IMG/VR virus record: IMGVR_UViG_3300042564_002773
Location: 1-26,420 of that record
From: a virus
Length of the DNA: 26,420 nt
Reading direction: 5' to 3' (one strand)
Below are positions 1 through 26,367 of this stretch, in pieces. The notes beneath the pieces are model-generated. The model saw only the letters and a list, made by a program, of their open reading frames with translations. It was not told the origin of the DNA and did no database searches. Numbering within the stretch: position 1 is the first letter of the stretch; each line of letters begins with the position of its first letter. Made by a program: the position numbers and the translations under genes.

Positions 1-30
1 GAAGTAGAATAACGGAATTTTAAAATAATT

Positions 31-38
31 ATATTTAT
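31..38 (+). promoter_or_regulatory. ATATTTAT box upstream of first structural gene
   Basis: The octamer ATATTTAT lies 21 nt before the start at 60. The same octamer precedes the starts at 2026, 3240, 8287 and 23441. A promoter -10-like role is inferred from recurrence and position only. Bases 1-12 could be the tail of a preceding reading frame (GAA GTA GAA TAA), but too little is visible to call a gene. Confidence 0.35.
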
Positions 39-59
39 AAACAAAGATAATATTATATT

Positions 60-683
60 ATGGGATATTTAAGTAATACCGAATTAACAGTTGACGCTAT
101 CTTAACAAAAAAAGGTAGAGAAAAGTTAGCAGCTGGACAAGGATTAAACATCACTCAGTTTGCATTGGCAGATGATGAGATTGATTACACACTTTACGAA
201 CCAGCACATCCAAAGGGGTCTGCTTTCTACGATGCAGCAATTAAAAATATGCCTGTGTTAGAAGCTAATCCGGATGAAACTCAAGTGATGAAATATAAGT
301 TAGTAACTTTACCAAAAAATACAACTCGTATTCCTGTTGTTGAATTTGGTGTTCCTAACATTGCGGTTAGTCAAAGAAGTGGTGAAGTATCACTTTCTCC
401 AACTACATCTCCTGCAGGAAATAGAAGTTTAGGATATACTATCGTATTATCTAATAAAAACGCAGGTGACATTGTAGGCGAAGGTGTAACATCTGATGTA
501 GGTTCGGTTCCTATGTTTATAGGAGATGATGTATCTGCAACCGCAGTAGTAGCAAAGGGTATAACTTTCAAATTTATTCCAAACCCATCTTTAACTTCAA
601 CTACCAGAACAACTATAACAGTTTATGGTAATGAAACGGGTGGTTCACAAACAATTCCAGTAACAGTAACTTACGTTCAATAA
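60..683 (+). CDS. Putative virion structural protein
   Basis: This 207-residue protein opens with a short charged segment containing AILTKKGREKLAAGQG, followed by FALADDEIDYTLYEP. This kind of N-terminus recurs, as I recall, in hypothetical structural proteins of large marine myoviruses. The rest (about residues 80-207) is rich in Ser, Thr, Val and Gly and looks beta-sandwich-like, ending in alternating Thr/Val strands. No enzymatic motif, signal peptide or membrane segment is visible. The next structural gene starts 9 nt downstream, so the two are probably co-transcribed. A baseplate, neck or tail accessory role is inferred from context; the family is not recognised with certainty. Confidence 0.75.
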   Translation: MGYLSNTELTVDAILTKKGREKLAAGQGLNITQFALADDEIDYTLYEPAHPKGSAFYDAAIKNMPVLEANPDETQVMKYKLVTLPKNTTRIPVVEFGVPNIAVSQRSGEVSLSPTTSPAGNRSLGYTIVLSNKNAGDIVGEGVTSDVGSVPMFIGDDVSATAVVAKGITFKFIPNPSLTSTTRTTITVYGNETGGSQTIPVTVTYVQ

Positions 684-8286: not shown

Positions 8287-11200
8287 ATGGCTGTTATAAA
8301 GAAAACCTTATTTGCTAAAAATTTAGATAAATTCGCAGTATTAGTAAACGATACTCAAAGTGATAGTAAATATTTTAAAATTACTGAACTACCGGACACA
8401 TTAACCGGTGGTAAGAATGCATTTTTAATCGCAGGTTCCGAACATTTGGTTCCTGATACTAAAATACAAATTGAATTAAAGGACTCAGCGGGTAATGTTA
8501 TCTATCACGAACCAGGTGAAGGTATACTGTCGTCATCTATTGATGGTACAGGTTTTATTACACAATATTATGAGGGTGTTTCGAAAGTTGTTGCAGTATA
8601 TGTTTATCCGGATACAGCATATGGCCCATGTACATTAACAATATTGGGTGAATTAACTGAGTATGAGGATGGTAATGGTATTTTAACACCCGTTCCATTA
8701 GATTGGGAAAATAAATACAATGTAAAGTGGCAAAAACAAATTGATGTTAACCCATCGTTAGCAAATACTACTAAAATTCGTTTTTACAAAAGACCAACAG
8801 TTACGATATCGGAATTATTAGACCCAATATATAGAATAGATGCAACAACTGGATTAAAAGTAAATACGGGAATAAATCAATCGTTTGCAAGTATAAAAGT
8901 ATCGAATTTAGAAACATTTGCAGGAGATGTGAAAAGAGTAAAAGTATTTAGAACATCTTTGGGTGATATTTCTGATTATGATTTAATACAAGATATATTA
9001 GTTGAGTCAAAAGAATTATTAACCACTTTTGGATTGAGTGGCAGTGTTATTGGAAATACTGGAACATTTACATCGGAAACTCTTAAAAATTATTGGATTA
9101 CAGGTTCTTTGACACCACATCTAACATCGAGTAGAGTTGAAAGTGGTGTTGCATTAAATGGTAGTGGATATTTTACACATAGTGCATCGTTAGATATTCG
9201 AAATACAAACACATATGAATTAAATTTAGATGCATTTTATTCAGCATCCGCAGATAGTAATTTGGGTATTTATTTAAGTCAAGTTACAACTTCAACAGAT
9301 GGTATAACACCTTTGGTTATATCAAGTAGTATTGCAACTTTGATAGGAACACAACCTACTAAAAATTTATTAGATACGGTTATTCCATTTAAATTAGATA
9401 GAAATTATCCAGATGCAAAATTATATTTTTCACAATCACGAGGTGAATGGCATTTAGGAAATATTAGTTTAAGATTATCACAAGATACCGCATTTTCTCC
9501 TGATGAGATTTCTTTTATTACAACAATGCCTACGGTAGTTGGTAATGAAGATTTCAATTTTAAGTTTGAATTTTATGATGTAAATAATAACTACGTTCCA
9601 GTATTGGTTACGGGTAGTGCAAATTTCACCGGCGGTTCAAATGCAATTACAAAATTGTTAACATTTGAATCGGATAGAACTGCGTTTAGATTTGCAACCG
9701 GTTCTTTTGCAAATCCACCGAATCAAAATGTAAGATTTAAAACAATAAAAACAAACTTCACAGGTGGAGTTACATATGCATCATCAGCTTTTGATGTAGG
9801 TGGAAACTATATACAACCATCCTCATATGCGGGAACTTATCCAGGTTGGTTTACATCTCAAAATGATAATGGTGCACTTTTAAGTATCGCAAGTTTTAGT
9901 GGAAGTGTTAGTAGTGTATTAGTTGGTTCAATTGTATATACCGCATCTTGTGAGGGGTTTGAAGAATATGAAACAATTTATAGATTTGAAGATGGTGACA
10001 ATGCACCGGGTGTATTTGTAACTGCCAATACAAATCAATTTATCTACAAAGCAACAGACCTATCCTTAAACCCATCAGGTCAAATTATTACAATAGAAGC
10101 TAAGAGGAAAAATTTAGCATCATCAATAACACCATTAACGGTTAATTCTGCAAGTGGGACTCCACCATTAACTTTTGTATCAACAAATCCAACAAATGGT
10201 GTAGATACTTATACATTAGCCGGTTCATCGTATCCATATTCGGTAGGAGAAAGAATTTATTATATATCAGGGTCAGACCAATTCAATAATGAATTTTCAG
10301 ATGCAATTAAAATATCTCCTGTAAAAATATTAGATGGATTGTCTGTAATTCTTACAAACGATAATGCATCATTACCTGCACTTTCTACGGGATTTATTGA
10401 GAGTGGTTCTTTTGTATTGAGTAGTGGTTCGGTTAGTGTTAAAGTTGGTAATGAAATTATAGCACATAGTAATGGGTTGTCTGCAAATAATAGATTTGAT
10501 GTTATATCAGCAGTTGCTACCAATGTTCAAACTGGTTCATTAAATTATTCTACTACCGATTATTATATAACCAGATTGGATGCTGATAGTGGTTCTTTGA
10601 ATTTGACTATAAGATACAAAGATGGAATGGGTGATACAACCGATACGACAAAATTGGTAACATATACTAAAAATAAAAAGGCTGCACCGGTATTAAACTT
10701 TGTAATTGGTAATAATAATCAAACTGTTACTGCAAAGTCAACGGGTGAACAAATCGATTCATTTGTTAATTCAACCTTTTTAGTGAATGAAACATATAAT
10801 GGAGCAACTACACAAAAGACATTTACTCCAACATCAATTACTGCTACTAATTCATATAGTGGATGGACTGCTACGGCAACATCATTAACATTACCGAATT
10901 TAGCAAATGCAACAGATTCGGTGGATATATCAGTAACCGGTTCCGTAGTTGATTCCGAAAATACAACAAGATTAGTTTATGGAAATATTTCATTAGCAAA
11001 ATCTAAAAAAGCAGTACCGAGTGTAGTAATTTCTGCAACTCCTCAGTCACAAACAGTTGCAGCCAATTCGGCAGGAGTTCAAACAGGCACATTGGCCAAT
11101 GTAACTATAACTGCTTTGGAAGGAGCAATTAGTAGATTTACATCTATGGTGATTCAAGGAACACCTGTTGGGTTTTCAACTGCACCTACGGTTAGTGGTA

Positions 11201-13977
11201 ATACTCTTACAATGACATCTGCGGTAATGAATGCCGATGAAGCATCTGTGACATTGACCATAACACATAGTGATAGTGAAGGTACTACTGGTCAAACTAA
11301 AACCATTACTATTCGTGCTTCGAGAGTTAAACAAGGAGAAAGTGGAGTAGTTGTAAATTTAAATCCTGCCTCACAAATAGTAACGGTAAGTAATACGGGT
11401 GTATATGGAACACCTACTTCATTTGTAGTTAGTGTTGTTGAAGGAGCTACTACATACACATATGATGGTACATCCCCATATGCTGCATCTACCTTTAGAA
11501 TAGCAAATTTAGTAGGAGGAACAAATACCAATGCAACGATTACACCCACTAAACCAACAACAACATCCGGAACAAATGTAACATTTGATGTAATATATGT
11601 GAACGCAGCTGGTACTTCTACAACCGTTGCACAATCCCATAAAGTATCCGTTGCATTGGATGGTCAAACAGGACCAGGTGTTGTATTTACCGGTGTGTGG
11701 GTACCTGACAGAGCATATCAATTTAGTACGGGTGCCGGTACGGGCCGTAGAGATGTTGTTCTTTGGAGTACGGATGGTAACGCTCCATATGAAGTATATT
11801 ATGCAGCAATTAGACAACATACATCTGCGACAGGAAACGTAGCAAATGGTTCACCTAATCAAACATCTCAAACCGGTTGGGAAAGTTTAGGTACACAAGA
11901 TTTCTTTGTAGCAGCTAAGATAGGTTTGTTTGAAGATTCATATGTTCAAAGTACATTAAATATTGGTACAAATAGTACTACCACATTTAATACTTCCAAC
12001 ATAACACTTGCGGGTGGTACTGCGTATCCATATTTTTCATTAGGTCAAGCTGTCGCTGGAGTATATAATGCAAATGGTATTTTTATAGGTGCGGTTAATG
12101 ATAATGGTACAAAATATAGAATGTCACTAAAATCTGCTGGTAATGCTCTTACTTGGGATGGTAGTGCACTTACGGTTACGGGAGCAATTAGTGGTGGTAC
12201 AATTGCAATTGGTAGTGGTGACACCATTTTCAAAGCAGATACAAGTGGAATTTATTTAGGAAATGCCACATTTGCAGATGCACCATTTAGAGTAACACCT
12301 GCAGGTGTAATGACGGCATCTAATGCAACAATTACTGGAAATATAACTGCTACATCTTTAACATTATCGGCTGGCGTTACTATTTCAAATACAAGAATTG
12401 ATGGATTGGGTGCACTTGCAACTAGAAATTCAGTCAATGCAACTTACATAGATAGTAATTCGATTACTACAAATCAAATTGCTGCAAATACAATTGTAGC
12501 GGGTAACATTTCATCATTAAAATTTAGTGGTAAAGATGCTAGATTTGATACTGGTTCAATCGCTGGTTGGAATATGGATACTACCGGTTTATATAAAACA
12601 ACGGGAACTTATACATTAAGATTAGCATCTAACTCACAAAGAATATCAATTACCGAAACATCGGTAAATAGTGTTGATTCGATAGATAGGGTTAGAATTG
12701 ATGCATCTGTGGATATACCTGAAATCACCGTATCAGATACCGCTTCACTTAACTGGTCAAATTCGGGTGCAAATGTGGGTGCGTTGTATGGAGACGATAG
12801 TCCAAGTGAAGAATATCATACTACCGGATATGCATTACCAGATGGTGTTTCGTATAATTATGGATATGGGTTTGGTATAATTGGATTACAATATGCAAAC
12901 GAAGAAATATTCGTTGAAGCTGAGGCTTTTCCTGATATATCAAACACCATTACTGGGTATGCAGCACTTCCAGCATTCGGTGAAACGCACACCGTTTATG
13001 GTTTTTGGAATTGTTCATTACGAGTTAGACAATACCCAACTGCAACGGATGCTCAAAATGAAACGAATGCAAATGCAACATATGGTGTAAAAGAAACTTT
13101 ACTTGGATATAGAGAATTTAGACAATCATACGCATCGGGAGTAGATGCACCACCTAATATAGATAATCAACAAGTATATGGTGCAACTATACCGGCGAAT
13201 GGTGGTGGTGGAATCAATACACCGGGTATTGCAATTTGGTATAGAGTTGAAGTGATACAAAATTGGTATTTACAAGCTACAGGTGGTAATAATGATAGTC
13301 AAATTTTTGCATATAAACCGGCAGCTGATATATTTGTGAAATATGGTAGAGTACAAAATGGTTATTCAGTATTCTCACCTGGTGGGTTGCAAGTTTATCA
13401 GGGTGTTAGAAATTATATGAATGCATCACTTCCGGCCGGTTCAACAGGAGATTCATCAAACTTTTTTATAGTAAAAGGTAAATCTCAAATTATTGGTTCA
13501 TTGAATGTGACATCTGGATTTAGTGCAAATAATAAACAATTTAAAATACAACATCCTATAAATGAAAATAAATGGTTATATCATACTTCAATAGAGGCAC
13601 CAAGAGCTGATTTGATTTATAGAGGCCATTTACAATTAGAAAACGGAAGTGGAAGTTGTTTAATAGATTTATCATCAAGAATGTCAGATGGCACATTTGA
13701 ATCATTTACAAAAAATTCACAATTATTTTTACAAAATGAAAGTGGTTTTGATAGAGTAAGGGGAAGTGTAATAAGTGGTTCTATAAATGTAATTTCAGAA
13801 AACATTAATTCAAATGATGTAATTAGTTGGATGGTAGTTGCAGAAAGAAACGACATCGATATACTAAAGTCACCATTATATGATAGAGATGGTAATTATA
13901 AAACTGAAAATTTTAAATCTCAATATCTTGATGAAACTCGCCACGAACGACTTGCAAATTTTAATAATGTTATATGA
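8287..13977 (+). CDS. Giant tail-fibre or tail-tip receptor-binding protein
   Basis: This 1,896-residue protein is rich in Ser, Thr, Gly and Asn, with no enzyme motif. A distinct N-terminal segment (about 1-180) probably attaches to the tail. Four tandem Ig-like modules span about 680-1125. Residues about 1126-1450 resemble the central and tail parts of lambda J-like tail-tip proteins: SGIYLGNATF, RVTPAGVMTASNATITG, then ITTNQIAANTIVAGN. The C-terminal 450 residues, with aromatic-rich beta segments, are the probable receptor-binding region. A chaperone or peptidase end domain was not recognised. The stop overlaps the start of a glycosyltransferase gene (ATGA). That is unusual for a virion gene and suggests coupled expression. 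Confidence 0.85.
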   Translation: MAVIKKTLFAKNLDKFAVLVNDTQSDSKYFKITELPDTLTGGKNAFLIAGSEHLVPDTKIQIELKDSAGNVIYHEPGEGILSSSIDGTGFITQYYEGVSKVVAVYVYPDTAYGPCTLTILGELTEYEDGNGILTPVPLDWENKYNVKWQKQIDVNPSLANTTKIRFYKRPTVTISELLDPIYRIDATTGLKVNTGINQSFASIKVSNLETFAGDVKRVKVFRTSLGDISDYDLIQDILVESKELLTTFGLSGSVIGNTGTFTSETLKNYWITGSLTPHLTSSRVESGVALNGSGYFTHSASLDIRNTNTYELNLDAFYSASADSNLGIYLSQVTTSTDGITPLVISSSIATLIGTQPTKNLLDTVIPFKLDRNYPDAKLYFSQSRGEWHLGNISLRLSQDTAFSPDEISFITTMPTVVGNEDFNFKFEFYDVNNNYVPVLVTGSANFTGGSNAITKLLTFESDRTAFRFATGSFANPPNQNVRFKTIKTNFTGGVTYASSAFDVGGNYIQPSSYAGTYPGWFTSQNDNGALLSIASFSGSVSSVLVGSIVYTASCEGFEEYETIYRFEDGDNAPGVFVTANTNQFIYKATDLSLNPSGQIITIEAKRKNLASSITPLTVNSASGTPPLTFVSTNPTNGVDTYTLAGSSYPYSVGERIYYISGSDQFNNEFSDAIKISPVKILDGLSVILTNDNASLPALSTGFIESGSFVLSSGSVSVKVGNEIIAHSNGLSANNRFDVISAVATNVQTGSLNYSTTDYYITRLDADSGSLNLTIRYKDGMGDTTDTTKLVTYTKNKKAAPVLNFVIGNNNQTVTAKSTGEQIDSFVNSTFLVNETYNGATTQKTFTPTSITATNSYSGWTATATSLTLPNLANATDSVDISVTGSVVDSENTTRLVYGNISLAKSKKAVPSVVISATPQSQTVAANSAGVQTGTLANVTITALEGAISRFTSMVIQGTPVGFSTAPTVSGNTLTMTSAVMNADEASVTLTITHSDSEGTTGQTKTITIRASRVKQGESGVVVNLNPASQIVTVSNTGVYGTPTSFVVSVVEGATTYTYDGTSPYAASTFRIANLVGGTNTNATITPTKPTTTSGTNVTFDVIYVNAAGTSTTVAQSHKVSVALDGQTGPGVVFTGVWVPDRAYQFSTGAGTGRRDVVLWSTDGNAPYEVYYAAIRQHTSATGNVANGSPNQTSQTGWESLGTQDFFVAAKIGLFEDSYVQSTLNIGTNSTTTFNTSNITLAGGTAYPYFSLGQAVAGVYNANGIFIGAVNDNGTKYRMSLKSAGNALTWDGSALTVTGAISGGTIAIGSGDTIFKADTSGIYLGNATFADAPFRVTPAGVMTASNATITGNITATSLTLSAGVTISNTRIDGLGALATRNSVNATYIDSNSITTNQIAANTIVAGNISSLKFSGKDARFDTGSIAGWNMDTTGLYKTTGTYTLRLASNSQRISITETSVNSVDSIDRVRIDASVDIPEITVSDTASLNWSNSGANVGALYGDDSPSEEYHTTGYALPDGVSYNYGYGFGIIGLQYANEEIFVEAEAFPDISNTITGYAALPAFGETHTVYGFWNCSLRVRQYPTATDAQNETNANATYGVKETLLGYREFRQSYASGVDAPPNIDNQQVYGATIPANGGGGINTPGIAIWYRVEVIQNWYLQATGGNNDSQIFAYKPAADIFVKYGRVQNGYSVFSPGGLQVYQGVRNYMNASLPAGSTGDSSNFFIVKGKSQIIGSLNVTSGFSANNKQFKIQHPINENKWLYHTSIEAPRADLIYRGHLQLENGSGSCLIDLSSRMSDGTFESFTKNSQLFLQNESGFDRVRGSVISGSINVISENINSNDVISWMVVAERNDIDILKSPLYDRDGNYKTENFKSQYLDETRHERLANFNNVI
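10324..11661 (+). repeat. Four tandem Ig-like modules in the fibre protein
   Basis: Modules begin near residues 680, 797, 907 and 1015, with lengths of 117, 110, 108 and about 110 residues. The last three align without gaps over their first 18 residues: KKAAPVLNF..NNQTV, KKAVPSVVI..QSQTV and KQGESGVVV..ASQIV, each followed within six residues by a Gly. The first module is offset by one residue and more diverged. Such modules act as spacers or carbohydrate-contacting domains in fibres. Confidence 0.6.
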
Positions 13978-14960
13978 TAGTTTTTATTACAACAGGTTAC
14001 GGAAAAAATGTTATAGGTGGTGCAGATTTGTGGTGCAATAACTTTATAGAAAATGTTTTACCATTAGTCAAAGACGATTATAAAATTGTAATCGATGGTA
14101 GGCCTTTAATTAAAGAATTTGGTGCAATCTACACTTACGAAAACGAAAAAGAAGTTGATAAAATTTTAAGAGAATGTGATAAAATTATATTCTTACATCA
14201 TTCTTATAAACCAAATCCAATTATTAAAAATTATTTACACAAAACCTATCTTACATTTGTCCATGCTTTTATTCCTGATATGTTGGGATTAAATTCTGAT
14301 TATGAAAATATAATGACAAAAGTAGATTGGGAATGGCAAAAAGAAATATTAGACAATTCGGATAATATAGTTTGGATTGGATATGAAAACGATACAATAC
14401 ATAAAGAATATCCACAAACAAAAACTATTACAAACTATTATGAATGGAAACATAATAAACCATTTACAGGAATTGTAAGTAATAAAATTGGATATGCTGC
14501 AAGATGCGAAACTAGAAAGAATGCACACTACTTGGATTACATTCCATCAATCATATTTTCAAACAAATATGATTACAAACGAATGTTGGAAGGGTCAAAA
14601 ACCAATTCGGACTATCATAGGTTTATAGAATTTGATTATCATTTTCATAATAAATTTTTCGAAGGAAACTTTCAAATATTTCATGGATGTTATACAAAAG
14701 AACCATTTGGATATGCAATTTTTGATGCAGTTGATAATGGTAAAGTTCCAATCATACATACGGATTGGATGAAACATATTGATTACAAATATAGAGCAAA
14801 TTCTAAAGGTGAATTTCATCAAAGATATTTAGAATTACAAGAAGACACTTTTGAAAAAATAAATTTAGAATTTTGTAAATTAAGAGACGGATTAAATGAA
14901 TATACAAATAAACAAAATTGGATTAAAGAAATATGCAGTTACTTAACGAAACACTTATAA
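13974..14960 (+). CDS. GT-B glycosyltransferase (GT4-like)
   Basis: This 328-residue protein has a GT4-like layout. The N-terminal loop is GGADLW (15-20), where GT4 enzymes have a glycine-rich loop. A mid-protein strand, IGYAARCETRKN (172-183), begins the donor domain. The donor-binding motif is EPFGYAIFDAVDNGKVPII (243-261), matching the family EPFGxxxxEA pattern with Asp251 in place of the second Glu. It would transfer a sugar from a nucleotide donor; donor and acceptor cannot be read from sequence. There is no signal peptide or membrane segment. ATGA overlap with the fibre stop implies translational coupling. The next gene overlaps its end by 28 nt. Confidence 0.8.
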   Translation: MIVFITTGYGKNVIGGADLWCNNFIENVLPLVKDDYKIVIDGRPLIKEFGAIYTYENEKEVDKILRECDKIIFLHHSYKPNPIIKNYLHKTYLTFVHAFIPDMLGLNSDYENIMTKVDWEWQKEILDNSDNIVWIGYENDTIHKEYPQTKTITNYYEWKHNKPFTGIVSNKIGYAARCETRKNAHYLDYIPSIIFSNKYDYKRMLEGSKTNSDYHRFIEFDYHFHNKFFEGNFQIFHGCYTKEPFGYAIFDAVDNGKVPIIHTDWMKHIDYKYRANSKGEFHQRYLELQEDTFEKINLEFCKLRDGLNEYTNKQNWIKEICSYLTKHL

Positions 14961-15700
14961 AAAAATATCTTACAAATAATCACACTATTAATGAAAATGG
15001 TGATGAAATATTAGAACCAATAAAGTATCGTTGGTCGCACGGTGCAACCGATTTACATCTGGGTGACGGTCTTTTGGTGTATTCTTTCATTCAGTTTATT
15101 AGAGCAAAGGTATGCGTCTGTATTGGGTCAGGAGGTGGATTTATACCTCGCTTAATGACGCAAGCTAGAAAGGATTTGTGGGAGCAAAAAATATTTAATG
15201 GTAATAATTCTCCGGAATGGGGAGATATTGGAACTACCATAATTGTAGATGCTGCAAACGGTGTTGGTGGTTTTGCCGATTGGACTGATGAGAATTCTTT
15301 TTTAAGGCAACACTTTTCACCGCAAGTTATATTGGAAACTTCAGAACGAGCATTTTACGATTATTTCGTAAGACAAGATATTAAAATTGACTATTTACAC
15401 ATTGATGGAGACCACTCATATGAAGGTGTAAAAAAAGATTTTGAATTATACTCAACAATTATGTCTGAAAATGGTATCATAACCATACACGATGTAGACC
15501 AAACATATCATGATACATTTATTGTAACCGAAAATGCAAAGCAAGATTTTGCATCCTTTGATGGCCCGGCAAAATTTATTAAAGATTTAGAAAAAAATAG
15601 TGATTGGAATTTGGTAAATTTAAAAAATTTTCGTATGTTTGATGTAAATTGTTCAAGTACTGGTTTAGCACTGCTAACAAGAAAGCTTAATAAAGATTAA
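14933..15700 (+). CDS. SAM-dependent methyltransferase (TylF/CmcI-like)
   Basis: This 255-residue protein has a class I methyltransferase fold. The SAM loop is VCVCIGSGGGF (60-70), a strand-end acidic residue follows at Asp106 (IIVDAANG), and the motif HIDGDHSYEGVKKD (156-169) is typical of the Methyltransf_24 group, which includes the sugar O-methyltransferase TylF and CmcI. The paired acids and His in HIDGDH and HDVD (186-189) probably bind a divalent metal. It would O-methylate a small molecule or sugar; in this cluster a glycan is the most likely substrate (inference). It overlaps the preceding glycosyltransferase by 28 nt and is 12 nt before the next. Confidence 0.8.
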   Translation: MQLLNETLIKKYLTNNHTINENGDEILEPIKYRWSHGATDLHLGDGLLVYSFIQFIRAKVCVCIGSGGGFIPRLMTQARKDLWEQKIFNGNNSPEWGDIGTTIIVDAANGVGGFADWTDENSFLRQHFSPQVILETSERAFYDYFVRQDIKIDYLHIDGDHSYEGVKKDFELYSTIMSENGIITIHDVDQTYHDTFIVTENAKQDFASFDGPAKFIKDLEKNSDWNLVNLKNFRMFDVNCSSTGLALLTRKLNKD

Positions 15701-15712
15701 TAAAAAAGTTAA

Positions 15713-16558
15713 ATGAATAAAGTAAGATTAGTTACAGTTACTGGTAGCAGGGTAGAGACTTTGTGGCATATGCTGAATCATTATAAAGATTTAGTAGACG
15801 AAATGTATGTCATAGTTTATGAGTGGGAGGGTTCTAGTACTTATAATGAAGTTTTAAAAATAACAAAAGAATTTGATACAGCAAAAATTGTAGAAAGAGT
15901 AACCAAAGAAAAATTTAATTGGGAATACGTTACTCAATTATATAATGAAACTAAAATGTTATTTCCTAACGATTGGTGGATAGTTTCAGATGATGATGAG
16001 TTTCATATTTACTCAAAACCATTACAGGAAATTATTTTAGATTGTAATAGAAATGGTTGGGAATTAGTACGAGGTGGATTTATTGATAGAATAGGACAAA
16101 CTGGAGATTTTCCAAAGATAAATAAAAAAGAAAATATATTTGAACAATTTCCAGTTGCAGGATTTTTTAGATATCCAATGAGTGGTGCATGTCCAAATAA
16201 AGTTTGTATAATGAAAGGTTATATAGAAATAACACCCGGTCAACATTACGCAAAAATAGATGGACAAACTACATGGAGATGGCAAGGTTGGAATCACCCA
16301 TTGATTGCACCTGTTGATGATTATAATGTTCAGGTCCACCATTTTAAATGGGATTCTACATGTGTAGAAAGAATTAAAGCAGTGGCAGATATTAAAAAAG
16401 ATTATTCATTTTCGGATGAATATTTAAAAATGTATCAAGCTTTAAGAAGAAATAATTTTGAGTTAGATGTTACAAACGATGAGTATATGTTTGAATACAT
16501 CGGCCAAAAGCAATATAAACAATGGAATAAATTATTTAAAAAAATTATATCTATATAA
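15713..16558 (+). CDS. GT-A glycosyltransferase (family 2-like)
   Basis: This 281-residue protein has an N-terminal strand VRLVTVTGSRVETLWHML, like GT-A enzymes that act on a nucleotide sugar. The metal-binding DxD equivalent is VSDDDEF (91-97), and a late His motif VHHFKW (208-213) suits the metal or phosphate site. The mid-region has several Trp residues (WELVRGGF, TWRWQGW) likely to line an acceptor pocket. It resembles the Glyco_tranf_2_4 and GT92 group more than classical GT2 synthases. No membrane segment is present, so it is not a polyprenyl-linked synthase. Donor and acceptor are unknown. Confidence 0.75.
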   Translation: MNKVRLVTVTGSRVETLWHMLNHYKDLVDEMYVIVYEWEGSSTYNEVLKITKEFDTAKIVERVTKEKFNWEYVTQLYNETKMLFPNDWWIVSDDDEFHIYSKPLQEIILDCNRNGWELVRGGFIDRIGQTGDFPKINKKENIFEQFPVAGFFRYPMSGACPNKVCIMKGYIEITPGQHYAKIDGQTTWRWQGWNHPLIAPVDDYNVQVHHFKWDSTCVERIKAVADIKKDYSFSDEYLKMYQALRRNNFELDVTNDEYMFEYIGQKQYKQWNKLFKKIISI

Positions 16559-16576: not shown

Positions 16577-18034
16577 ATGGTAGATTCAAAAAAATTATCA
16601 ATCATAGTTCCGTACTCAAATCGTCTTGAAGATTTGTATAGTTTCGTCGGACACATGGAATATTTTCTAAAAGATAAATTAGATTATGAAATACATTTCA
16701 TCGAACAAATCGACGCAGATGTATATTTTAATTATGGTAAACTATGTAATATTGGTGCAGCTATAACATCGGGTAAATCTGATTATTTTGTATTTCATGA
16801 CATAGATGTTTTACCAAAGCAGGAAACATGTAATTATGATTTTGATTATTATCCAACACATCTTTGTCCTAATTTGAAACCATATCCACATTGGATTGGT
16901 GGTGCATTTAAAATATCAAAAAAAGATTTTATAACTGCAAATGGATTTAGCAATGACTATTGGGGTGGTGGATTTCATTGGATTGATTTTCTTTATAGAA
17001 TGAAGAAACACAAATTATTACCATCTAAAAGATTTTTTACAAAAAACATATACAAATCACACACATTAACCGATGTAAAGGAAGTTAGTAAATACATTAA
17101 AAAAACAATATATCCATTTATTTCAAATGAAAATAATTGTTGTTTTATTAAAGCCAACAAAACTACTGATTACATTTTTGAAGATTCTTTTACAATATCA
17201 ATGAATGTTTATATAAACGATAACCAATCAACAAATGGTTGTATAATAGGTAAGCAAGGATATGATATGGGAATTTATATTATGAAAAATGAAGCCATAG
17301 TTGTTAAATTGTGGGGAAGTAATGGTGAGTATTATCAAATTTGGTATCCACATAAGGTACACACAAATCAATGGATTAATTTATCATTTAAAGTTGATTT
17401 TGATACTAAAAAAATGACATTATATGTTGATGGGAAAAAAGTAGATAGTACAACCATTGAGTGTGATTATTTAATGGATTTTAAAGGTAAAGATTTATGG
17501 ATTGGAAGTTTGGCATTTAAAGATACATTTGAAGGCAAAGTATCAAATCTTTTATTATTCGATTATGCATTAACGGATTCGGAAATACTAAAACTATATA
17601 CCGATGGATATAAGACAAATGATGATGTCATAAACACCAACTTTGAAGCAGCAATATCAATTTCATTTAATAAAAAATTTGGAGATTTTTATGTAGACGA
17701 ATCCAAATCACATTCAAATGCAAGAATAGTTTCAACAGGCCTACATCAAGAGATTTTTTCAGAAGAATTGAACCTATCATATGAGTTTGATATGCCGGAA
17801 ATTTCAAACGGCCGTTTTCAAATTTTGGAAAATTCAAAAAAATTCAGTAACTTAGAAAACTACAACTGGAAAAGAAAAGATGAATCATTTGAAGAAAATG
17901 AAAAAATATTCTTTTATGAAATAGCAACAGGAGTATTAAATACTGACAAATTTGGTTTGAATACATTATCATATGATTTAGTATCAACCGAAGAAATAAA
18001 AACAAATGTATATAAACATCAAATAAAAATATAA
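16577..18034 (+). CDS. GT7-like protein with LamG insert, probably inactive
   Basis: This 485-residue paralogue of the next two GT-LamG proteins keeps IIVPYSNR (9-16), FNYGKLCNIG (51-60) and the DxD motif FHDIDVLP (73-80). Where GT7 enzymes have WGWGxEDDD it has WGGGFHWID (129-137), so the Glu and first two Asp are His134, Trp135 and Ile136. The C-terminal metal His aligns with Asn419, and DGLN becomes FGLN (459-462). A LamG domain fills about 190-385, ending in DLWIGSLAFKDTFEGKVS and ALTDSEILKLY. Sugar binding may survive, but beta-1,4-galactosyltransferase catalysis by the known mechanism is unlikely. A lectin, scaffold or altered-specificity enzyme are the alternatives. Confidence 0.72.
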   Translation: MVDSKKLSIIVPYSNRLEDLYSFVGHMEYFLKDKLDYEIHFIEQIDADVYFNYGKLCNIGAAITSGKSDYFVFHDIDVLPKQETCNYDFDYYPTHLCPNLKPYPHWIGGAFKISKKDFITANGFSNDYWGGGFHWIDFLYRMKKHKLLPSKRFFTKNIYKSHTLTDVKEVSKYIKKTIYPFISNENNCCFIKANKTTDYIFEDSFTISMNVYINDNQSTNGCIIGKQGYDMGIYIMKNEAIVVKLWGSNGEYYQIWYPHKVHTNQWINLSFKVDFDTKKMTLYVDGKKVDSTTIECDYLMDFKGKDLWIGSLAFKDTFEGKVSNLLLFDYALTDSEILKLYTDGYKTNDDVINTNFEAAISISFNKKFGDFYVDESKSHSNARIVSTGLHQEIFSEELNLSYEFDMPEISNGRFQILENSKKFSNLENYNWKRKDESFEENEKIFFYEIATGVLNTDKFGLNTLSYDLVSTEEIKTNVYKHQIKI

Positions 18035-18366: not shown

Positions 18367-19797
18367 ATGAAATTAGGAATAATAGTTCCATATCGAAACA
18401 GAGAATCACATCTAAAGAAATTTTTAGATGGTATAAAATCATATTTTAAAACACAAAAATTAAAATATGAAATTATAATAGTTGAACAACTTGATGATAA
18501 ACCATTTAATAGAGGTAAATTATTAAATGTCGGATACATTAAAGCTAAGCAATTAGGATGTGAATATATTGTATTTCATGATGTGGATATGATACCAATA
18601 GAAGTAGATTATTCATATTCGGAATTACCATTACATCTTGCAACTAATTTTGAATTGGAATATGACAAATCAAAAAATTTAACATTTGATGATTATTTTG
18701 GTGGAGTAACAATGCTTACTGCTGATATATTTGAAAAAATAAATGGATATTCTAATTTATATTGGGGTTGGGGTTTTGAAGATGATGACCTTTTATTCAG
18801 AGTTAGTGAAAAGAAAATACCAATTGATACTAAAGTAATAGGTAAAAATGAAGTAAAAAAATTATATGGACTTTCGTTTAACGGAGAAGAATCTTATATT
18901 AAGATACCAAAAAAAGATTTATTAGATTTTGAAAAAGATACATCAATATTAATTAGTTTTAAGCCCGATGAAATAATATCAAATCCAAATAACGACTATG
19001 ATGAATATACGGTTTTTTCAATACCAGGATACGATACCTCTATAAGTTATAATTCATTTAGAAGATATAAAATTGATTTTTGGGATAATAACAATGAATG
19101 TACTTCTATAAATTCGGAAATATTAACAAATCATTTTACACAAATTTGTTTAACATATGAATACGAATCAAATCAATTTTCTTTTTATAAAGATGGTGAA
19201 TTAATTGCAACAAAACAATTGAATGCAATTCCAAAAGATTATTCCGAAGAAGAATATTTTTATTTAGGAATTGGTTCACCAAACAGAGATGAAAATAAAA
19301 ATAGTTTTTTTGGTATGATTTCTGAATTTGCAATTTATGATTGTGCTTTAAAAGAGAAAGAAATAATGGTATTATCTGAAAATGTTTTAGAAAATTCATT
19401 ATTAGAAAATTTTAGAGCTTATAAATCATCTCAACATTTAAAATTATATTATGATTTTAAATTTTATAAAAATAATTCTTTAATAGACTTATCTTTTAAC
19501 AATAACGATGGTGAAATAATCAATTCTCATTTTGTTAAATCACAAGAATCATTGGGTAAAGAAATGGTAGTACCTTATAGAAGAAAATCTTTATTTAAAT
19601 TGTTATCACATAAAACAAATAGTTGGAATGAGAAAAACTGGGTGCACAAAGAAACCAGAACAAATCAGCTTAGGTTTTTAAACCAAATCAAAACAAAATT
19701 GTATGATACGGATAAGGATGGTTTAAATAATTGTACTTATCAAATTTTAAATGATATCAAAGTAAATAACTACCATCACCTATCAGTTTTATTATAA
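18367..19797 (+). CDS. GT7 beta-1,4-galactosyltransferase-like enzyme with nested LamG
   Basis: This 476-residue protein carries the full GT7 motif set. IIVPYRNR is at 5-12, FNRGKLLNVG at 47-56, metal-binding DVD at 72-74, and YFGG at 110-113 with WGWGFEDDD at 133-141. After a gap of about 270 residues come SHKT with His415 (animal beta4Gal-T1 His347) and DGLNNCTYQIL at 451-461 (animal DGLNSLTYQVL). The gap (about 165-390) is a LamG/concanavalin-A-like domain: FNGEESYIKIP at its start, the FFGMISEFAIYDCALKEKEI signature at 314-333 and YDFKFYKNNSLIDLSF near its end. The lectin-like module is therefore nested inside the transferase fold. The residue at the Met344 position is Leu. No signal anchor is present. 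Confidence 0.85.
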   Translation: MKLGIIVPYRNRESHLKKFLDGIKSYFKTQKLKYEIIIVEQLDDKPFNRGKLLNVGYIKAKQLGCEYIVFHDVDMIPIEVDYSYSELPLHLATNFELEYDKSKNLTFDDYFGGVTMLTADIFEKINGYSNLYWGWGFEDDDLLFRVSEKKIPIDTKVIGKNEVKKLYGLSFNGEESYIKIPKKDLLDFEKDTSILISFKPDEIISNPNNDYDEYTVFSIPGYDTSISYNSFRRYKIDFWDNNNECTSINSEILTNHFTQICLTYEYESNQFSFYKDGELIATKQLNAIPKDYSEEEYFYLGIGSPNRDENKNSFFGMISEFAIYDCALKEKEIMVLSENVLENSLLENFRAYKSSQHLKLYYDFKFYKNNSLIDLSFNNNDGEIINSHFVKSQESLGKEMVVPYRRKSLFKLLSHKTNSWNEKNWVHKETRTNQLRFLNQIKTKLYDTDKDGLNNCTYQILNDIKVNNYHHLSVLL

Positions 19798-21263
19798 TGG
19801 CACATAAATTAGGAGTATGCGTACCATATAGAAATAGAGAGGAACATATGAATCAATTTGTTCCCCACATTTCTAATTTTTTAGATAAACGAGGTATAGA
19901 CCACACAATATATATTGCGCATCAAAGAGATGAATTTCTATTTAATAGAGGTTTAATGAAAAACATTGCTGCTAAACATGCATTCGATGATGGATGTGAT
20001 TACATCGTTTGGCATGATATTGATATGGTTCCTGAAGATGAGAGTTGTGACTATTCGTATCCAGAAGAAAATCCTCAACACATTGCAGTTCGTATTTCTC
20101 AATCGGATTATCAATTAAAATATCAAGAATACTTTGGAGGAGCTATATTGTTTACAAAAGAACAAGTTATGGCAACAAATGGTTATTCAAATGATTATTG
20201 GGATTGGGGTATGGAAGATGATGATTTATTTTGGAGATGTGTTAAAGAAGGTATGGTGGATAAACAAACTATTGACTTTGCAAAAGTAAAAAATGTAGCA
20301 GTATTCAATGGAGTTGATTCTTATATAAAAATACCAAATAAAGAAAATTTAAGATTAGCAATTTCAAATTCTCATACAATTTCTGTTTTAGTAAAAGCAG
20401 AACAACAAATTGAAAAAGTACCTATCTGGTTGATAGGTGACCAAAATAGACAATTTGTAGAATACCCTATTTTCAGAAAACCTGGATACGATTGGGGATT
20501 ATCTTTTAATAATAGTAGAGCATATACGGGTATGTTATGGAATGCACACAGAGAACATATATACCAGTGGTTCAAACGATATGAAGGTGAATGGACTTGG
20601 GTAACAATGGTTGTTGATGATTTAGAAAAAAAGATGCATTTTTATTTAAATGGTAATGAAAGTGACTCGAGAAACGGAACGGGTACACAATCGCCAGTTT
20701 CATATAATTATAACTTGAAAAGATATGGTACTGAACCATTTTTTATAGGCCATACACCAACAGTTGAGCCATTCCAAGCCAATGCATATTTTAAAGGTGA
20801 GATTGCTGATATAAAAATGTGGGACAGAGCATTATCAAAAGAAGAAGTTGCAGAATTGCATAAACAATATTCTACTGAAGGTTTGGTTCTTCATTATAAT
20901 TTTGATGAAATTGTAGATGATAAATTTGTAATAGACCAGGCAGAATTAAATGATGGGGTAATGTTTAATACCGAAATAATAAAATCGGAAATACAAATAC
21001 CACATGTAATTTTACCACATAGAAGGGATGGTAGATTTTTTTGTTTACCACATGAAACCGAAGGTTTGATAAATGTAAATGGAATAGATAAGTGGGCAAA
21101 GGGTGAAACAACAGCTGCAAATGAAAGACGATATGTGTTACAAATGCAACAAGATAAAATAGATTATAAAACAGATGGTATTAATAGTATGAAATACAAA
21201 TATTTGAGCACAGAAAGAATATTTGGAAATCATAAAATGATTAATGTTCATTGTATAAAATAA
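19797..21263 (+). CDS. GT7 beta-1,4-galactosyltransferase-like enzyme with nested LamG, paralogue
   Basis: This 488-residue protein has the same order as its upstream neighbour: VCVPYRNR (7-14), FNRGLMKNIA (49-58), DID (74-76), YFGG (112-115), WDWGMEDDD (135-143), then LamG (about 168-390, with FFIGHTPT at 315-322 and RALSKEEVAELH at 344-355). It is followed by PHRR and CLPHET with His419 and DGINSMKYKYL (460-470). All expected metal and base residues are present, and Cys is at the Met344 position. Trp136 of the WGWG motif is Asp. Its start codon overlaps the upstream stop (TAATG), so both should be made together. Two intact, diverged copies suggest two linkages or acceptors. Confidence 0.85.
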   Translation: MAHKLGVCVPYRNREEHMNQFVPHISNFLDKRGIDHTIYIAHQRDEFLFNRGLMKNIAAKHAFDDGCDYIVWHDIDMVPEDESCDYSYPEENPQHIAVRISQSDYQLKYQEYFGGAILFTKEQVMATNGYSNDYWDWGMEDDDLFWRCVKEGMVDKQTIDFAKVKNVAVFNGVDSYIKIPNKENLRLAISNSHTISVLVKAEQQIEKVPIWLIGDQNRQFVEYPIFRKPGYDWGLSFNNSRAYTGMLWNAHREHIYQWFKRYEGEWTWVTMVVDDLEKKMHFYLNGNESDSRNGTGTQSPVSYNYNLKRYGTEPFFIGHTPTVEPFQANAYFKGEIADIKMWDRALSKEEVAELHKQYSTEGLVLHYNFDEIVDDKFVIDQAELNDGVMFNTEIIKSEIQIPHVILPHRRDGRFFCLPHETEGLINVNGIDKWAKGETTAANERRYVLQMQQDKIDYKTDGINSMKYKYLSTERIFGNHKMINVHCIK

Positions 21264-21268
21264 AATAA

Positions 21269-22687
21269 ATGGCAGACGAAAAAAGAGCATTCTCAGAAAA
21301 TCCAATTTACCTGAGAGTAAAAGATGAGTTAAATGAAGTTGGACCTGGTATGTGTTTGGCCAAATGGACACAAGTAACTTTACAATTACAAAGTGGACAT
21401 AATCACTCATGTCACCACCCTAGAACTCATAAAATTTCCGAACAAGAAATTGCACGAAACCCATCAGCACTTCATAATACACGATATAAAAAACTTCGTA
21501 GAAAAGAAATGTTACAAGGTAGTAGGCCTACGGAGTGTGATTATTGTTGGAATGTGGAAGATAGTTCCGATAGATTTAGCGATAGAATATTTAAATCAGG
21601 AGAAAGTTGGTCTTATCCATTTATGAAAGAAATAGTTGAATCGGATTGGAGAGAAGACTATAATCCAAAATATGTAGAAGTTGCATTTAGTAATGCCTGT
21701 AACTTTAAATGTTCATATTGTGGCCCTGCGTATAGTTCTAAGTGGGTGGAAGAAATTGAAGAGTTTGGACATTATCCAACATTGGATAAATTTAATTCGG
21801 TTGATTGGATGAAGCAAGAAGATAAATTTCCAATCCCACATAGAGAACATAATCCATATGTAGAAGCATTTTGGGAATGGTGGCCGGATTTATATAAAGA
21901 CTTACATACCTTTAGAATTACTGGTGGTGAACCATTGATGTCAAAGGATACTTGGAAAGTATTGGACTATATCATTGACCACCCAAATCCAAATACTGAA
22001 TTAAAATTAGCATTCAATTCAAATTTAGGTGTACCAACTGAACTTGTAAAAAAGTTTATTGAAAAAATAAAAAGAATTGAAGACGAAGGTAGAGCTAAAG
22101 AGATTGTTATATTTACATCATGTGATACTTGGGGAGAGCAGGCAGAATATATACGAACTGGGTTGGAGTTTAATAAATTCTGGGACCACGTTAATATGAT
22201 TCTAACAGAATGTCCTAGAGTTATTATTACTTTCATGTCAACATATAATGCATTAAGTTTATTCAATTATGAAAAGTTAATACACAACATTTATAATTTA
22301 AAAGACCAATATGCAAGTTCGGATAGATATTGGAACTCAGCAGTATTTTTGGATTCATCTTATTTGAGATACCCACTACATCAGACAGTTCAAGTCCTTC
22401 CATTTGATTTTGCTAATTTAATATTAGACCAAGCTAAATTGATTACATATTATGCTGCACCTTCATTTGACCATAGACATGTGGGATATAGTGATGTTGA
22501 AGTACAAAAAGTAAAAAGAATCTATGATTGGATGTTGGCACCACAAGATTCACAACAACAAATGAAAAACAGATATAGTTTTTATCAATACTTTTCAAAT
22601 CACGATATTAGAAGAGGAACTGATTTTTGTAAAACATTCCCTGAATTAGAAGAATTTTATAACTTCTGTAAAACAATACAATTATGA
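21269..22687 (+). CDS. Twitch-domain radical SAM protein
   Basis: This 472-residue protein has the radical SAM cluster motif CNFKCSYC (Cys144, Cys148, Cys151), followed by TGGEP (218-222) for SAM binding. Upstream of the core are CHHPRTH (48-54) and CDYCW (90-94), which resemble the N-terminal region of phage-type twitch radical SAM proteins. Further cysteines (Cys285, Cys315, Cys454, Cys467) could serve an auxiliary cluster. The enzyme would generate a 5'-deoxyadenosyl radical; the substrate is unknown. Context points to a sugar or to a modified protein or nucleotide. It is 5 nt after the GT7 gene, and its stop overlaps the next start (ATGA). Confidence 0.88.
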   Translation: MADEKRAFSENPIYLRVKDELNEVGPGMCLAKWTQVTLQLQSGHNHSCHHPRTHKISEQEIARNPSALHNTRYKKLRRKEMLQGSRPTECDYCWNVEDSSDRFSDRIFKSGESWSYPFMKEIVESDWREDYNPKYVEVAFSNACNFKCSYCGPAYSSKWVEEIEEFGHYPTLDKFNSVDWMKQEDKFPIPHREHNPYVEAFWEWWPDLYKDLHTFRITGGEPLMSKDTWKVLDYIIDHPNPNTELKLAFNSNLGVPTELVKKFIEKIKRIEDEGRAKEIVIFTSCDTWGEQAEYIRTGLEFNKFWDHVNMILTECPRVIITFMSTYNALSLFNYEKLIHNIYNLKDQYASSDRYWNSAVFLDSSYLRYPLHQTVQVLPFDFANLILDQAKLITYYAAPSFDHRHVGYSDVEVQKVKRIYDWMLAPQDSQQQMKNRYSFYQYFSNHDIRRGTDFCKTFPELEEFYNFCKTIQL

Positions 22688-23440: not shown

Positions 23441-24412
23441 ATGAAAGTATTAATTACAGGTGGTGCAGGATATTTGGGTTCGGTATTAGTTGGTAAACTA
23501 TTAGAACAAAGTTATGAAGTTGTAGTATTAGATAAATTATTGTTTAATCAAACTTCATTATTACAATATACATGCAAATCAAAGTTTAAATTTATTCATG
23601 GAGATGTTCGTAATGAAGAACTATTGGAAAAACTTTGTAATGAAGCCGATGTAATTATTCCATTAGCAGCAATCGTAGGATTTCCTGCATGTGCAGCAGA
23701 CCCAAAATTGGCAAAAGAAATTAATTTTGACCAAATTGTAAACATAGTTAAGTTTACAAATAATAAAGGTAAAAAGATTTTATATCCAAATACAAATAGT
23801 GGATATGGATTGGGTACCGGTCAGTTGGAATGTACCGAAGAATCACCTCTCACACCAATATCGGTTTATGGGCAAACCAAATGTGACGCAGAAAACTTTT
23901 TAAGAAATTGTACGGACGCAATCGTATTTAGATTGGCAACTGTATTTGGAGTTTCACCAAGAATGAGAACCGACTTATTGGTAAACGATTTTGTTTATAA
24001 AGCAATAACCGACAAATATATTGTTGTGTTCGAAAAAACATTTAAAAGAAACTTTATCCATATACAGGATGTTGCATTTACTTTTTGTTTTATGATACAA
24101 CATTATGATAAATACAAAGGTGAAATTTTCAATGTAGGATTGAGTAATGCAAATCTTTCAAAACAAGAGTTATTAGAAAAGATACAAACTCATGTAAAAG
24201 ATTTTGCAGTATCTTATAATGATTTTTATGAGGACCCAGATAAAAGGAACTACATTGTATCAAACGACAAATTAGAAGCAACTGGATGGGGCCCACAATG
24301 GAATTTAGATAGAGGTATTGACGAACTTATAATGGCATACCAAATGATAGTTCCAAAAATGGGTTTTGAATTTAGAAATGGGTTTCCTTTAGGATATGCA
24401 AATCAAACATAA
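23441..24412 (+). CDS. Extended SDR nucleotide-sugar epimerase/dehydratase
   Basis: This 323-residue protein has the NAD(P)-binding motif GGAGYLG (7-13), Asp31 closing the second strand (VVVLDK, an NAD-preferring feature), GDV (54-56), and the catalytic Tyr143 and Lys147 in SVYGQTK with Ser120 in NTNSGYG. FRNFIHI-like sequence (RNFIHIQDVA) is typical of UDP-glucose 4-epimerase and RmlB/GMER relatives. It would act on a nucleotide-linked sugar; epimerase, dehydratase or reductase cannot be decided from sequence. An RmlC-type epimerase follows one nucleotide later. Together they suggest synthesis of a modified deoxysugar donor for the cluster's transferases. Confidence 0.85.
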   Translation: MKVLITGGAGYLGSVLVGKLLEQSYEVVVLDKLLFNQTSLLQYTCKSKFKFIHGDVRNEELLEKLCNEADVIIPLAAIVGFPACAADPKLAKEINFDQIVNIVKFTNNKGKKILYPNTNSGYGLGTGQLECTEESPLTPISVYGQTKCDAENFLRNCTDAIVFRLATVFGVSPRMRTDLLVNDFVYKAITDKYIVVFEKTFKRNFIHIQDVAFTFCFMIQHYDKYKGEIFNVGLSNANLSKQELLEKIQTHVKDFAVSYNDFYEDPDKRNYIVSNDKLEATGWGPQWNLDRGIDELIMAYQMIVPKMGFEFRNGFPLGYANQT

Positions 24413-24413
24413 T

Positions 24414-24959
24414 ATGAGTAACAAATGGGATGAGTTCCAAATTACTCCATCGAAAAAATTTGGTTATGATGTTCCACAATTTCAACCATCGGTATTTAGA
24501 GAATATAGAGGTGAAATATTTACAACATATCATTCCGAAGAACATCCGGTGATGAATCATATTCACTATGATAAGAATGAACTTTCTATTCACGGAAGAT
24601 TTTCTCGTTCTTATAAAGGTGTATTGAGGGGATTGCACTGGGATAATAAGACATGGAAATTAGTACAAGCAGCAGTCGGTGATATCTACTTAGTTGTGTT
24701 AGATATGAGAGAGCAATCATCGACATATGGTGAGTGGGAATCATTTATTATAAGTGAAAGATTGAGAAATCAAATATTAGTTCCACCTGGATTTGCAAAT
24801 GGACACTACGCACTAACCGATTGCATGTTTCATTATAACCTATTTTATAAAGATGGGTATGTTGATGCAGATGAGCAAGGTGTAGTTAAGTGGAATGACC
24901 CGGAATACCAAATGGAATGGCCAACAAATAATCCAATATTACAAAAAAGAGACAGATAA
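24414..24959 (+). CDS. RmlC-type dTDP-4-keto-6-deoxyhexose 3,5-epimerase
   Basis: This 181-residue protein (start ATG at 24414, one base after the preceding stop; an in-frame ATG at 24396 lies inside that gene) has the RmlC cupin signature. It contains SYKGVLRGLHW with catalytic His75 and Arg72, PPGFANGH (114-121), and a Tyr-rich strand FHYNLFYKDGY (129-139) with the expected second catalytic residue. Length matches the family (about 180). It would epimerise a 4-keto-6-deoxysugar nucleotide. No RmlA, RmlB or RmlD is visible in the window, so earlier steps must come from the host or elsewhere in the phage. Confidence 0.85.
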   Translation: MSNKWDEFQITPSKKFGYDVPQFQPSVFREYRGEIFTTYHSEEHPVMNHIHYDKNELSIHGRFSRSYKGVLRGLHWDNKTWKLVQAAVGDIYLVVLDMREQSSTYGEWESFIISERLRNQILVPPGFANGHYALTDCMFHYNLFYKDGYVDADEQGVVKWNDPEYQMEWPTNNPILQKRDR

Positions 24960-25732
24960 TGAAAATACATTTTTTTGGTTGTAGTTTTACGGAAGGTGGT
25001 GGCCTCGATAATTTTGAATATTATAATAAAAAAGAAAATAAAAATTATAATATAGACAATAATATAAGAGAGCAATTTGAAGAAGTTAGATTATTTAAAG
25101 AAGCAAATAGATATTCAACTATTGTAGGAAATTTATTGGATGTAGATGTTTACAATTATGCAGAAGGATGTAATTCTAATGAAAATATTTTAAATAAAGC
25201 TTTTGAAATTGTAAATAAAGATACTACCACATATAATGATGTTTTTATAATTCAAACATCGATTTATAGTAGAAAACATTTTTGGTATGAACCAACGAAT
25301 GATTTTTATAGTATCAATGCATTGGGAAAAACAGATTGGCCATACCAAAATAAAGAAGAATATATGCCATTACATCAATTGTATAATTTATATTCTATGT
25401 ATTCTCACAACGAAGAATATGAAATGAAAAAATTATTAAATCAAATTGATTTATTCAATTCATATTTTAAAGAAAAAAATATAAAATTATTTTGGGCACC
25501 ATGGCCGGAATTAACATCATCTATAATTAATGAAGAAATAGTAAAATTTAATAAAAGTATAGAAGATAAAAATATAATATTGTTTGATGGGTTTAGTATG
25601 GGTACATTTGCATCTAATAAAAAATTATTAATGTGTGATGAATTTGAAGATGTAACCGATAGACATAAATCAACAATGGGACATAAAACAATTGCAAATA
25701 AAATAGTAGAATTTTTAAAAGAAAAGTTATGA
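24959..25732 (+). CDS. SGNH/GDSL-type hydrolase or acyltransferase-like protein
   Basis: This 257-residue protein starts KIHFFGCSFTEGGG, a GDS-like block I with candidate nucleophile Ser9. NYAEGCNSNEN (66-76) can supply the block II/III Gly and Asn. DRHKSTMGHKTIA (234-246) resembles the Asp-His block V with His236 or His242. In this family the enzymes hydrolyse esters or remove or transfer acetyl groups on sugars. The middle (about 95-170) is Tyr-rich and not recognised. Start overlaps the epimerase stop by one base. An O-acetyl or other ester modification of the cluster's glycan is plausible. Confidence 0.65.
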   Translation: MKIHFFGCSFTEGGGLDNFEYYNKKENKNYNIDNNIREQFEEVRLFKEANRYSTIVGNLLDVDVYNYAEGCNSNENILNKAFEIVNKDTTTYNDVFIIQTSIYSRKHFWYEPTNDFYSINALGKTDWPYQNKEEYMPLHQLYNLYSMYSHNEEYEMKKLLNQIDLFNSYFKEKNIKLFWAPWPELTSSIINEEIVKFNKSIEDKNIILFDGFSMGTFASNKKLLMCDEFEDVTDRHKSTMGHKTIANKIVEFLKEKL

Positions 25733-26367
25733 TAAAAAATTTAGAACAATATCCAATAGTAAGAACCGAAACTGAAATAGGTTGGACTCCTGAAAAATTA
25801 ATTAGATTTGAAGATAGAATAGTTGAACATTGGTCTAATGCAAAAATAAGAGGCCCTATTCACTTATCAAATGGAAACGAAGAACAATTGATTGAAATAT
25901 TCAAAAGAGTTTCTGAAAAAGATTGGGTATTCAGTACTTGGCGTTCTCACTACCATTGGTTATTAAAGGGTGTTTCAGCCGATTATGCAGAGGAACTAAT
26001 CTTACAAGGTAAATCTATAACCTTATGTGATATAGACGAAAAATTCTATGCATCTGCGATTGTAGGTGGGTCTTTATCAATTGCATTAGGTGTTGCAATG
26101 GGAATTAAACAAAAGGGTAGTGATGAAAAGGTATTTGTATTCGTAGGTGATATGTCATTTGAAAGTGGTATATTTTATGAAGTGCATAAATATGCCAGAA
26201 ACTTTGACTTACCGATTATATTCATAGTAGAAGATAATGGGGTATCAACATACACCCCAACCGATGCAACTTGGAATGTTAAAAGAGAAATACCATCGGA
26301 TGTAATTCATTATACATACAAATCAAAATTTCCACATTACGGAACGGGTAAGTGGATAGCATTTTAA
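25729..26367 (+). CDS. Thiamine-diphosphate E1-alpha-like protein, short form
   Basis: This 212-residue protein resembles the alpha chain of the pyruvate/acetoin dehydrogenase E1 family. STWRSHYHWLLKG (69-81) matches the family YRxHxxxLxxG region, and IVGGSLSIALGVAMG (111-125) follows. The diphosphate-binding motif GDMSFESGIFYEV (140-152) ends in IVEDNG (166-171), the usual VVENNG. E1-alpha chains usually run to 320-360 residues. This one stops about 40 residues after the motif, so the C-terminal helices are missing. The next gene starts 2 nt later and could be a partner chain. It may transfer a two-carbon unit in sugar chemistry, but that is inference. Confidence 0.75.
   Translation: MIKNLEQYPIVRTETEIGWTPEKLIRFEDRIVEHWSNAKIRGPIHLSNGNEEQLIEIFKRVSEKDWVFSTWRSHYHWLLKGVSADYAEELILQGKSITLCDIDEKFYASAIVGGSLSIALGVAMGIKQKGSDEKVFVFVGDMSFESGIFYEVHKYARNFDLPIIFIVEDNGVSTYTPTDATWNVKREIPSDVIHYTYKSKFPHYGTGKWIAF

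Follow-up and report, generated by a model that had tools for sequence, protein, structure and literature searches.

A LamG domain nested within a GT7 galactosyltransferase-type catalytic domain in tandem genes of an uncultivated phage

The GT7-LamG genes and their cassette

The window analysed is the whole 26,420-nucleotide stretch of the IMG/VR virus record IMGVR_UViG_3300042564_002773, and the genes of the cassette described here are all on its plus strand. Two adjacent genes, P0002 (18367-19797) and P0003 (19797-21263), had originally been predicted to join a GT7 galactosyltransferase with a LamG domain, and both open reading frames are present. Each has Pfam matches above the cut-offs to Glyco_transf_7N, Glyco_transf_7C and Laminin_G_3, with E-values of 4.6e-23, 3e-17 and 3.8e-13 for P0002 and 2.3e-18, 7.8e-19 and 1.6e-15 for P0003. 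The two genes named were correct and the count was one short, as a third gene of the same layout, P0001 (16577..18034, 485 aa), lies upstream. Both GT7 profiles exceed the gathering score in all three proteins, which have in common the Pfam order GT7N-GT7C-LamG, and P0003 matches only P0001, P0002 and itself within the record. The N-terminal pieces of P0002 and P0003 match the PDB sequences of beta4Gal-T1 and T7 with E-values of 1e-23 to 1e-33. Membership of the GT7 family is well supported.

The N-terminal GT7 piece of P0002 (18367..18834, residues 1-156) contains FNRGKLLNVG, DVD (72-74), DYFGG (Tyr110) and WGWGFEDDD (133-141). The LamG insert follows at 18835..19569 (residues ~157-401, Laminin_G_3 at 172-333), and the C-terminal GT7 piece (19570..19797, residues 402-476) carries the metal-binding His415, the flexible loop and DGLNN. 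In P0003, LFNRG, DID (74-76), EYFGG (Tyr112) and WDWGMEDDD are found in the N-terminal piece (19797..20264, residues 1-156), the insert is at 20265..21011 (residues ~157-405, Laminin_G_3 at 172-352), and the metal-binding His419 and DGINS are in the C-terminal piece (21012..21263, residues 406-488). The insert of P0001, placed by its profile junction at residues ~153-410 (17033..17806), has a Laminin_G_3 match at 202-337 (E 1.2e-17).

Related loci were collected in scans of IMG/VR that took the best 80 loci per query out of 176-566 relatives found; the resulting 160 loci overlap in part. Across them, a P0002-type gene is followed by a P0003-type gene almost without exception, and the surrounding order is strongly conserved: methyltransferase, GT2, sometimes P0001, small protein, P0002, P0003, radical SAM, sometimes a LamG, epimerase and RmlC. 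In the window, these correspond to a methyltransferase (14933..15700; Methyltransf_24, E 5e-11; 111 of the 160 loci), a glycosyltransferase-2-like protein (15713..16558; Glyco_tranf_2_4, a weak match below the cut-off, E 0.00096; 148 loci), a Twitch-domain radical SAM protein (21269..22687; NF033640, E 7e-104; 153 loci), and nucleotide-sugar epimerase/dehydratase and RmlC-type 3,5-epimerase genes (23441..24959; NCBIfam GalE 2.5e-28 and rmlC 2.4e-30, both below equivalog cut-offs). The small protein, 107 aa, is encoded between P0001 and P0002 (18040..18363) and occurs at 154 loci. It has a highly conserved core, LExRKVKALEKIANSLDALTxWFEEIxKxEWSxR, and a variable tail; a Pfam search found no family for it, and it is possible that it serves as an adaptor of the cassette.

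Taken alone, P0004 (22684..23436) has no Pfam match. Profiles of the LamG insert match 42-43 of 43 P0004-like proteins (best 1.7e-17), and hhalign of P0004 against the insert gives 99.1-99.6% over ~200-212 columns. These profile comparisons identify P0004 as a stand-alone relative of the LamG insert along almost all of its length.

Other genes of the window were also noted. At the end of the cassette, near the end of the window, there is an E1-dehydrogenase/transketolase-like thiamine-diphosphate protein of 212 aa (25729-26367, PF00676). Upstream of the cassette is a fibre-like protein of 1896 aa (8287-13977) that has no Pfam family above cut-off and is a candidate carrier or adhesin. Subunits resembling SbcD and SbcC, of the T4 gp47/gp46 type, are fused in one 1047-aa gene (4866-8009), which has a full-length match, 42.5% identical, in Microcystis phage Mel-JY01. 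The phage of the window is distant from isolates.

Position of the insert in the catalytic domain

A profile built only from 10 compact GT7s collected from bacterial genomes matches P0002 in two pieces, 2-156 and 401-467, and P0003 in two pieces, 2-154 and 405-486, which in both proteins join at profile position ~155-159. The C-terminal GT7 motifs, claimed from the outset to be displaced beyond the LamG domain, are thus real, with i-E-values for the C piece of 1.5e-5 (P0002) and 4.2e-7 (P0003). P0001 is matched at 4-152 and 411-480, the latter weakly (i-E 0.011). When all gathered proteins were compared with this profile, 257 distinct proteins matched in two stretches and 90 distinct proteins in one. 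Median profile positions in the 257 are 158 (quartiles 156-159) for the end of the N segment and 154 (152-157) for the start of the C segment, and the two segments are separated by 202-326 aa (median 246); in 225 the C segment alone has an i-E below 1e-3. The same junction is seen when split and compact enzymes are aligned. Since the N and C segments of the 257 proteins meet at one profile position, the split layout is, on the evidence of these alignments, an insertion at one point of a single catalytic domain.

AlphaFold2 models of P0002 and P0003, made from alignments generated in this analysis, have pLDDT of 93.8-94.1 and pTM of 0.86 and 0.88. Compared with bovine beta4Gal-T1 by VIA-align, the P0002 model gives Z 26.6 and an rmsd of 2.4 A over 213 residues (span 1..476), and the P0003 model Z 28.8 and 1.7 A over 216 residues (span 1..488); alignments to beta4Gal-T1 cover 211-218 residues and reach both ends of the models. 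Because the superposition extends across both GT7 pieces of each protein, the pieces are modelled as one GT-A core, with the C piece packed on the N piece. Model residues ~163-406 match the LamG domain of PAPP-A, the Bacteroides protein 4dqa and pentraxins with Z 17-22, the P0003 insert matching PAPP-A and pentraxins with Z 18-22 over 164-406. The superposition suggested with the original prediction therefore bears it out at both points, the packing of the C-terminal residues and the LamG sandwich in the middle. The LamG assignment has both a Pfam match above cut-off and, in the P0002 and P0003 models, the beta-sandwich fold. A circularly permuted LamG, considered on account of a 'YDF...DLSGNGNDG' stretch at the insert end, was dropped, as the model aligns with PAPP-A and pentraxins over the whole insert.

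An insertion had been correctly recognised, and its size was underestimated at about 225 residues; it is 245-251 aa in P0002 and P0003. Its location also differs slightly from the one first proposed, the flexible acceptor-side loop. The insert is in the turn of a beta-hairpin a few residues before the strand of the metal-binding His (P0002 residues 156 to 401), ~14 residues ahead of His 415/419. In beta4Gal-T1 the flexible loop closes on donor and metal binding and makes the acceptor site (PMC4202792). In P0002 and P0003 this long loop is C-terminal to the His347 equivalent and is uninterrupted; it is the stretch of lowest confidence in the P0003 model (72-75). DSSP assigns long strands that cross both junctions (P0002 154-172 and 388-402; P0003 155-171 and 393-406), and since these strands run through the junctions the LamG appears in the models to be mounted on a continued beta-ribbon, not on a loose linker. 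Taken across sequence, profile and structure models, the nesting of LamG in the GT7 catalytic domain is strongly supported.

Catalytic residues, P0001 and distribution

P0002 and P0003 both have the DxD, E317/D318, His347 and DGL motif residues, and the Tyr289 equivalent is kept (Y110 and Y112, respectively). All 62 P0002-type proteins compared keep, without exception, the equivalents of both DxD aspartates, Tyr289, W314, E317, D318, D320 and His347 (H415) and the glycine of DGL (G452); the catalytic residues are nearly invariant in P0003 relatives. Tyr289 favours Gal over GalNAc, and UDP-Gal is the predicted donor for P0002 and P0003. In beta4Gal-T1 the metal ligands are D254, M344 and H347, and R359, F360 and I363 are acceptor-pocket residues (PMC7565966). 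At the position of M344, most of the proteins studied here have L, S or C.

P0001 retains DxD and GL. It has WGGGFHWID in place of WGWGxEDDD and has lost the catalytic base and the metal-binding His, so that the equivalents of E317, D318 and His347 are absent (H134, W135 and E/N at 418-419); it is predicted to be catalytically dead. The loss is common to P0001 and its close relatives, and several more distant P0001-type proteins retain ED and H. Purifying selection acts alike on the N piece, insert and C piece (dN/dS ~0.05-0.40), with values of 0.06-0.40 across the pieces of P0001. Because it is under purifying selection despite its lost catalytic residues, P0001 is probably a kept non-catalytic subunit, a pseudo-glycosyltransferase, and not debris. 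Columns conserved at 90% or above make up 6-12% of the insert versus 30-35% of the catalytic pieces, a pattern consistent with variable recognition, although a generic spacer would give it too.

In a tree made from the GT7 pieces only, a single branch separates all 50 split proteins from the 40 compact proteins, requiring one change, with moderate support (75). The P0001, P0002 and P0003 types form largely separate groups among the split proteins. One insertion followed by duplications would fit this tree.

Nearly all of the 257 split proteins are on IMG/VR phage contigs. Those on three contigs from metagenome-assembled genomes (MAGs; L164-L166) are in the same cassette, and these are probably phage contigs binned with their hosts. 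On a further MAG contig of 66 kb (L168:2244-8903), a split GT7-LamG gene has an ABC exporter, a GT2 and an LRR-protein-kinase gene as its neighbours; because of these, a cellular member using the layout is likely here, which weakens the view that the layout is a phage-only trait. A tblastn search with P0002 and P0003 found no match among 50,697 phage records. The best 50 BFVD matches to each model cover one domain only, with query TM-scores of at most 0.40, and none of these has the full layout. The open-access papers searched contained nothing relevant on phage or viral proteins that combine LamG with a GT7 or other galactosyltransferase domain. The split layout thus recurs in hundreds of uncultivated aquatic phages, whereas searches of cultured-phage genomes and of solved structures did not find it. 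The original statement that no enzyme of this layout had been described held in PDB sequences and folds, in those BFVD matches, in cultured phages and in those papers.

Proposed function and comparison with other transferases

It is clear that the layout is real and well conserved, and that ordinary predicted chemistry is combined with an unusual architecture. The explanation considered fairly probable as a whole is of a GT7 enzyme rebuilt around LamG, which presents the acceptor for galactose transfer in the making of a phage-encoded glycan. A complete LamG/pentraxin-type sandwich was inserted into the beta-hairpin turn preceding the metal-binding strand, with the C-terminal piece packing on the N-terminal piece to rebuild the beta4Gal-T1 fold and active site, as the profile and models show. 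Because the DxD, E317/D318, His347 and Tyr289 equivalents are conserved, P0002 and P0003 are most likely inverting enzymes that use UDP-Gal to transfer galactose. Two continuous strands next to the metal site connect the LamG with the catalytic core, and the LamG would most likely bind an acceptor glycan or glycosylated carrier and present it to the active site; such built-in acceptor recognition is offered as a hypothesis. Together, P0002, P0003, the inactive P0001, the free LamG, the methyltransferase, the other transferases and the sugar-nucleotide enzymes may build a phage-encoded glycan, the target of which would be the virion or the host surface.

LamG/pentraxin folds often bind proteins or lipids, not sugars, and carbohydrate binding is not universal among them. 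It is possible, but less probable, that the LamG serves in protein docking or oligomerisation and does not bind acceptor sugars; it would then join all three GT7-LamG proteins with the free LamG in a multi-enzyme complex or anchor them on a virion protein. The closest solved folds, pentraxins and PAPP-A, act in assemblies; three tandem copies and a free LamG are within one cassette; and selection on a P0001 that has lost catalytic residues is as expected of a scaffold subunit. However, the insert adjoins the catalytic metal strand, and attachment at an end would be simpler for a docking domain. It is quite improbable that the proteins serve chiefly as lectins or virion components and that GT7 activity is vestigial in all copies. 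Phage structural proteins commonly carry LamG domains, P0001 is degenerate and the cassette is just downstream of the fibre-like gene, but the catalytic residues are conserved among P0002 and P0003 relatives as described above, and sugar-nucleotide enzymes and other transferases are encoded in the cassette. Nothing was found in favour of a chimeric assembly or a chance fusion between neighbouring genes, and both are refuted by 257 distinct split proteins with one junction, in single open frames on many contigs, and by high-confidence models of a single fold.

A bolder reading, which is rather doubtful, is that the cassette encodes a dedicated polymerase of several subunits for a phage glycan. 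It would consist of two active GT7s and an inactive paralogue, each with an in-frame LamG to hold the growing chain, and one nested insertion, later duplicated, would have made a processive or acceptor-gated system out of a galactosyltransferase that acted in a single step. Such a polymerase would be a convergent counterpart of the paired GT7-containing chondroitin-synthase subunits. Built on the best-studied galactosyltransferase fold, kept in hundreds of phages and occurring here in three tandem copies, the layout offers a natural design to couple acceptor recognition with catalysis, and the cassette points to an undescribed glycan of abundant aquatic phages, on the virion or the host surface.

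Animal beta-1,4-galactosyltransferases (B4GALT1, B4GALT7) share with the phage proteins the fold (Z 23-29), DxD, WGWGxEDDD, the metal-binding His, the DGLNS motif and the Tyr289 equivalent. Unlike the phage proteins they are compact, leading from the WGWG motif to the metal-binding His with no intervening domain. The insert is also absent from compact bacterial GT7s of the same family, such as one of 221 aa from Parachlamydiaceae, which share ~31-49% identity with the N piece of P0002, and from compact viral members, such as one of 253 aa. The LamG domains of LamG proteins, pentraxins and PAPP-A have the fold of the insert (Z 17-22), without nesting in a transferase in any match found.

Alpha-lactalbumin alters the acceptor choice of beta4Gal-T1 in trans (PMC7565966), and lectin-assisted transferases are known in the GalNAc-Ts with a ricin lectin (PMC4432651) and in MGAT4A and POMGnT1 (PMC9296478). 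The LamG beside the metal strand may be a covalent counterpart, in cis, of alpha-lactalbumin or of such appended lectin domains. GalNAc-Ts, MGAT4A and POMGnT1 likewise combine a GT-A catalytic domain with a domain of carbohydrate-binding type in a single polypeptide, where the lectin assists or guides the enzyme. They differ in that the enzymes belong to other GT families and their lectin domains have other folds and are appended at the N or C end, and in the GALNT type the lectin is outside the catalytic domain, whereas the phage LamG separates the two stretches that match a single catalytic profile. In the cases compared, the lectin domains that help a glycosyltransferase are thus attached at an end, and the nesting of a lectin-type domain next to the strand of the catalytic metal departs from them.
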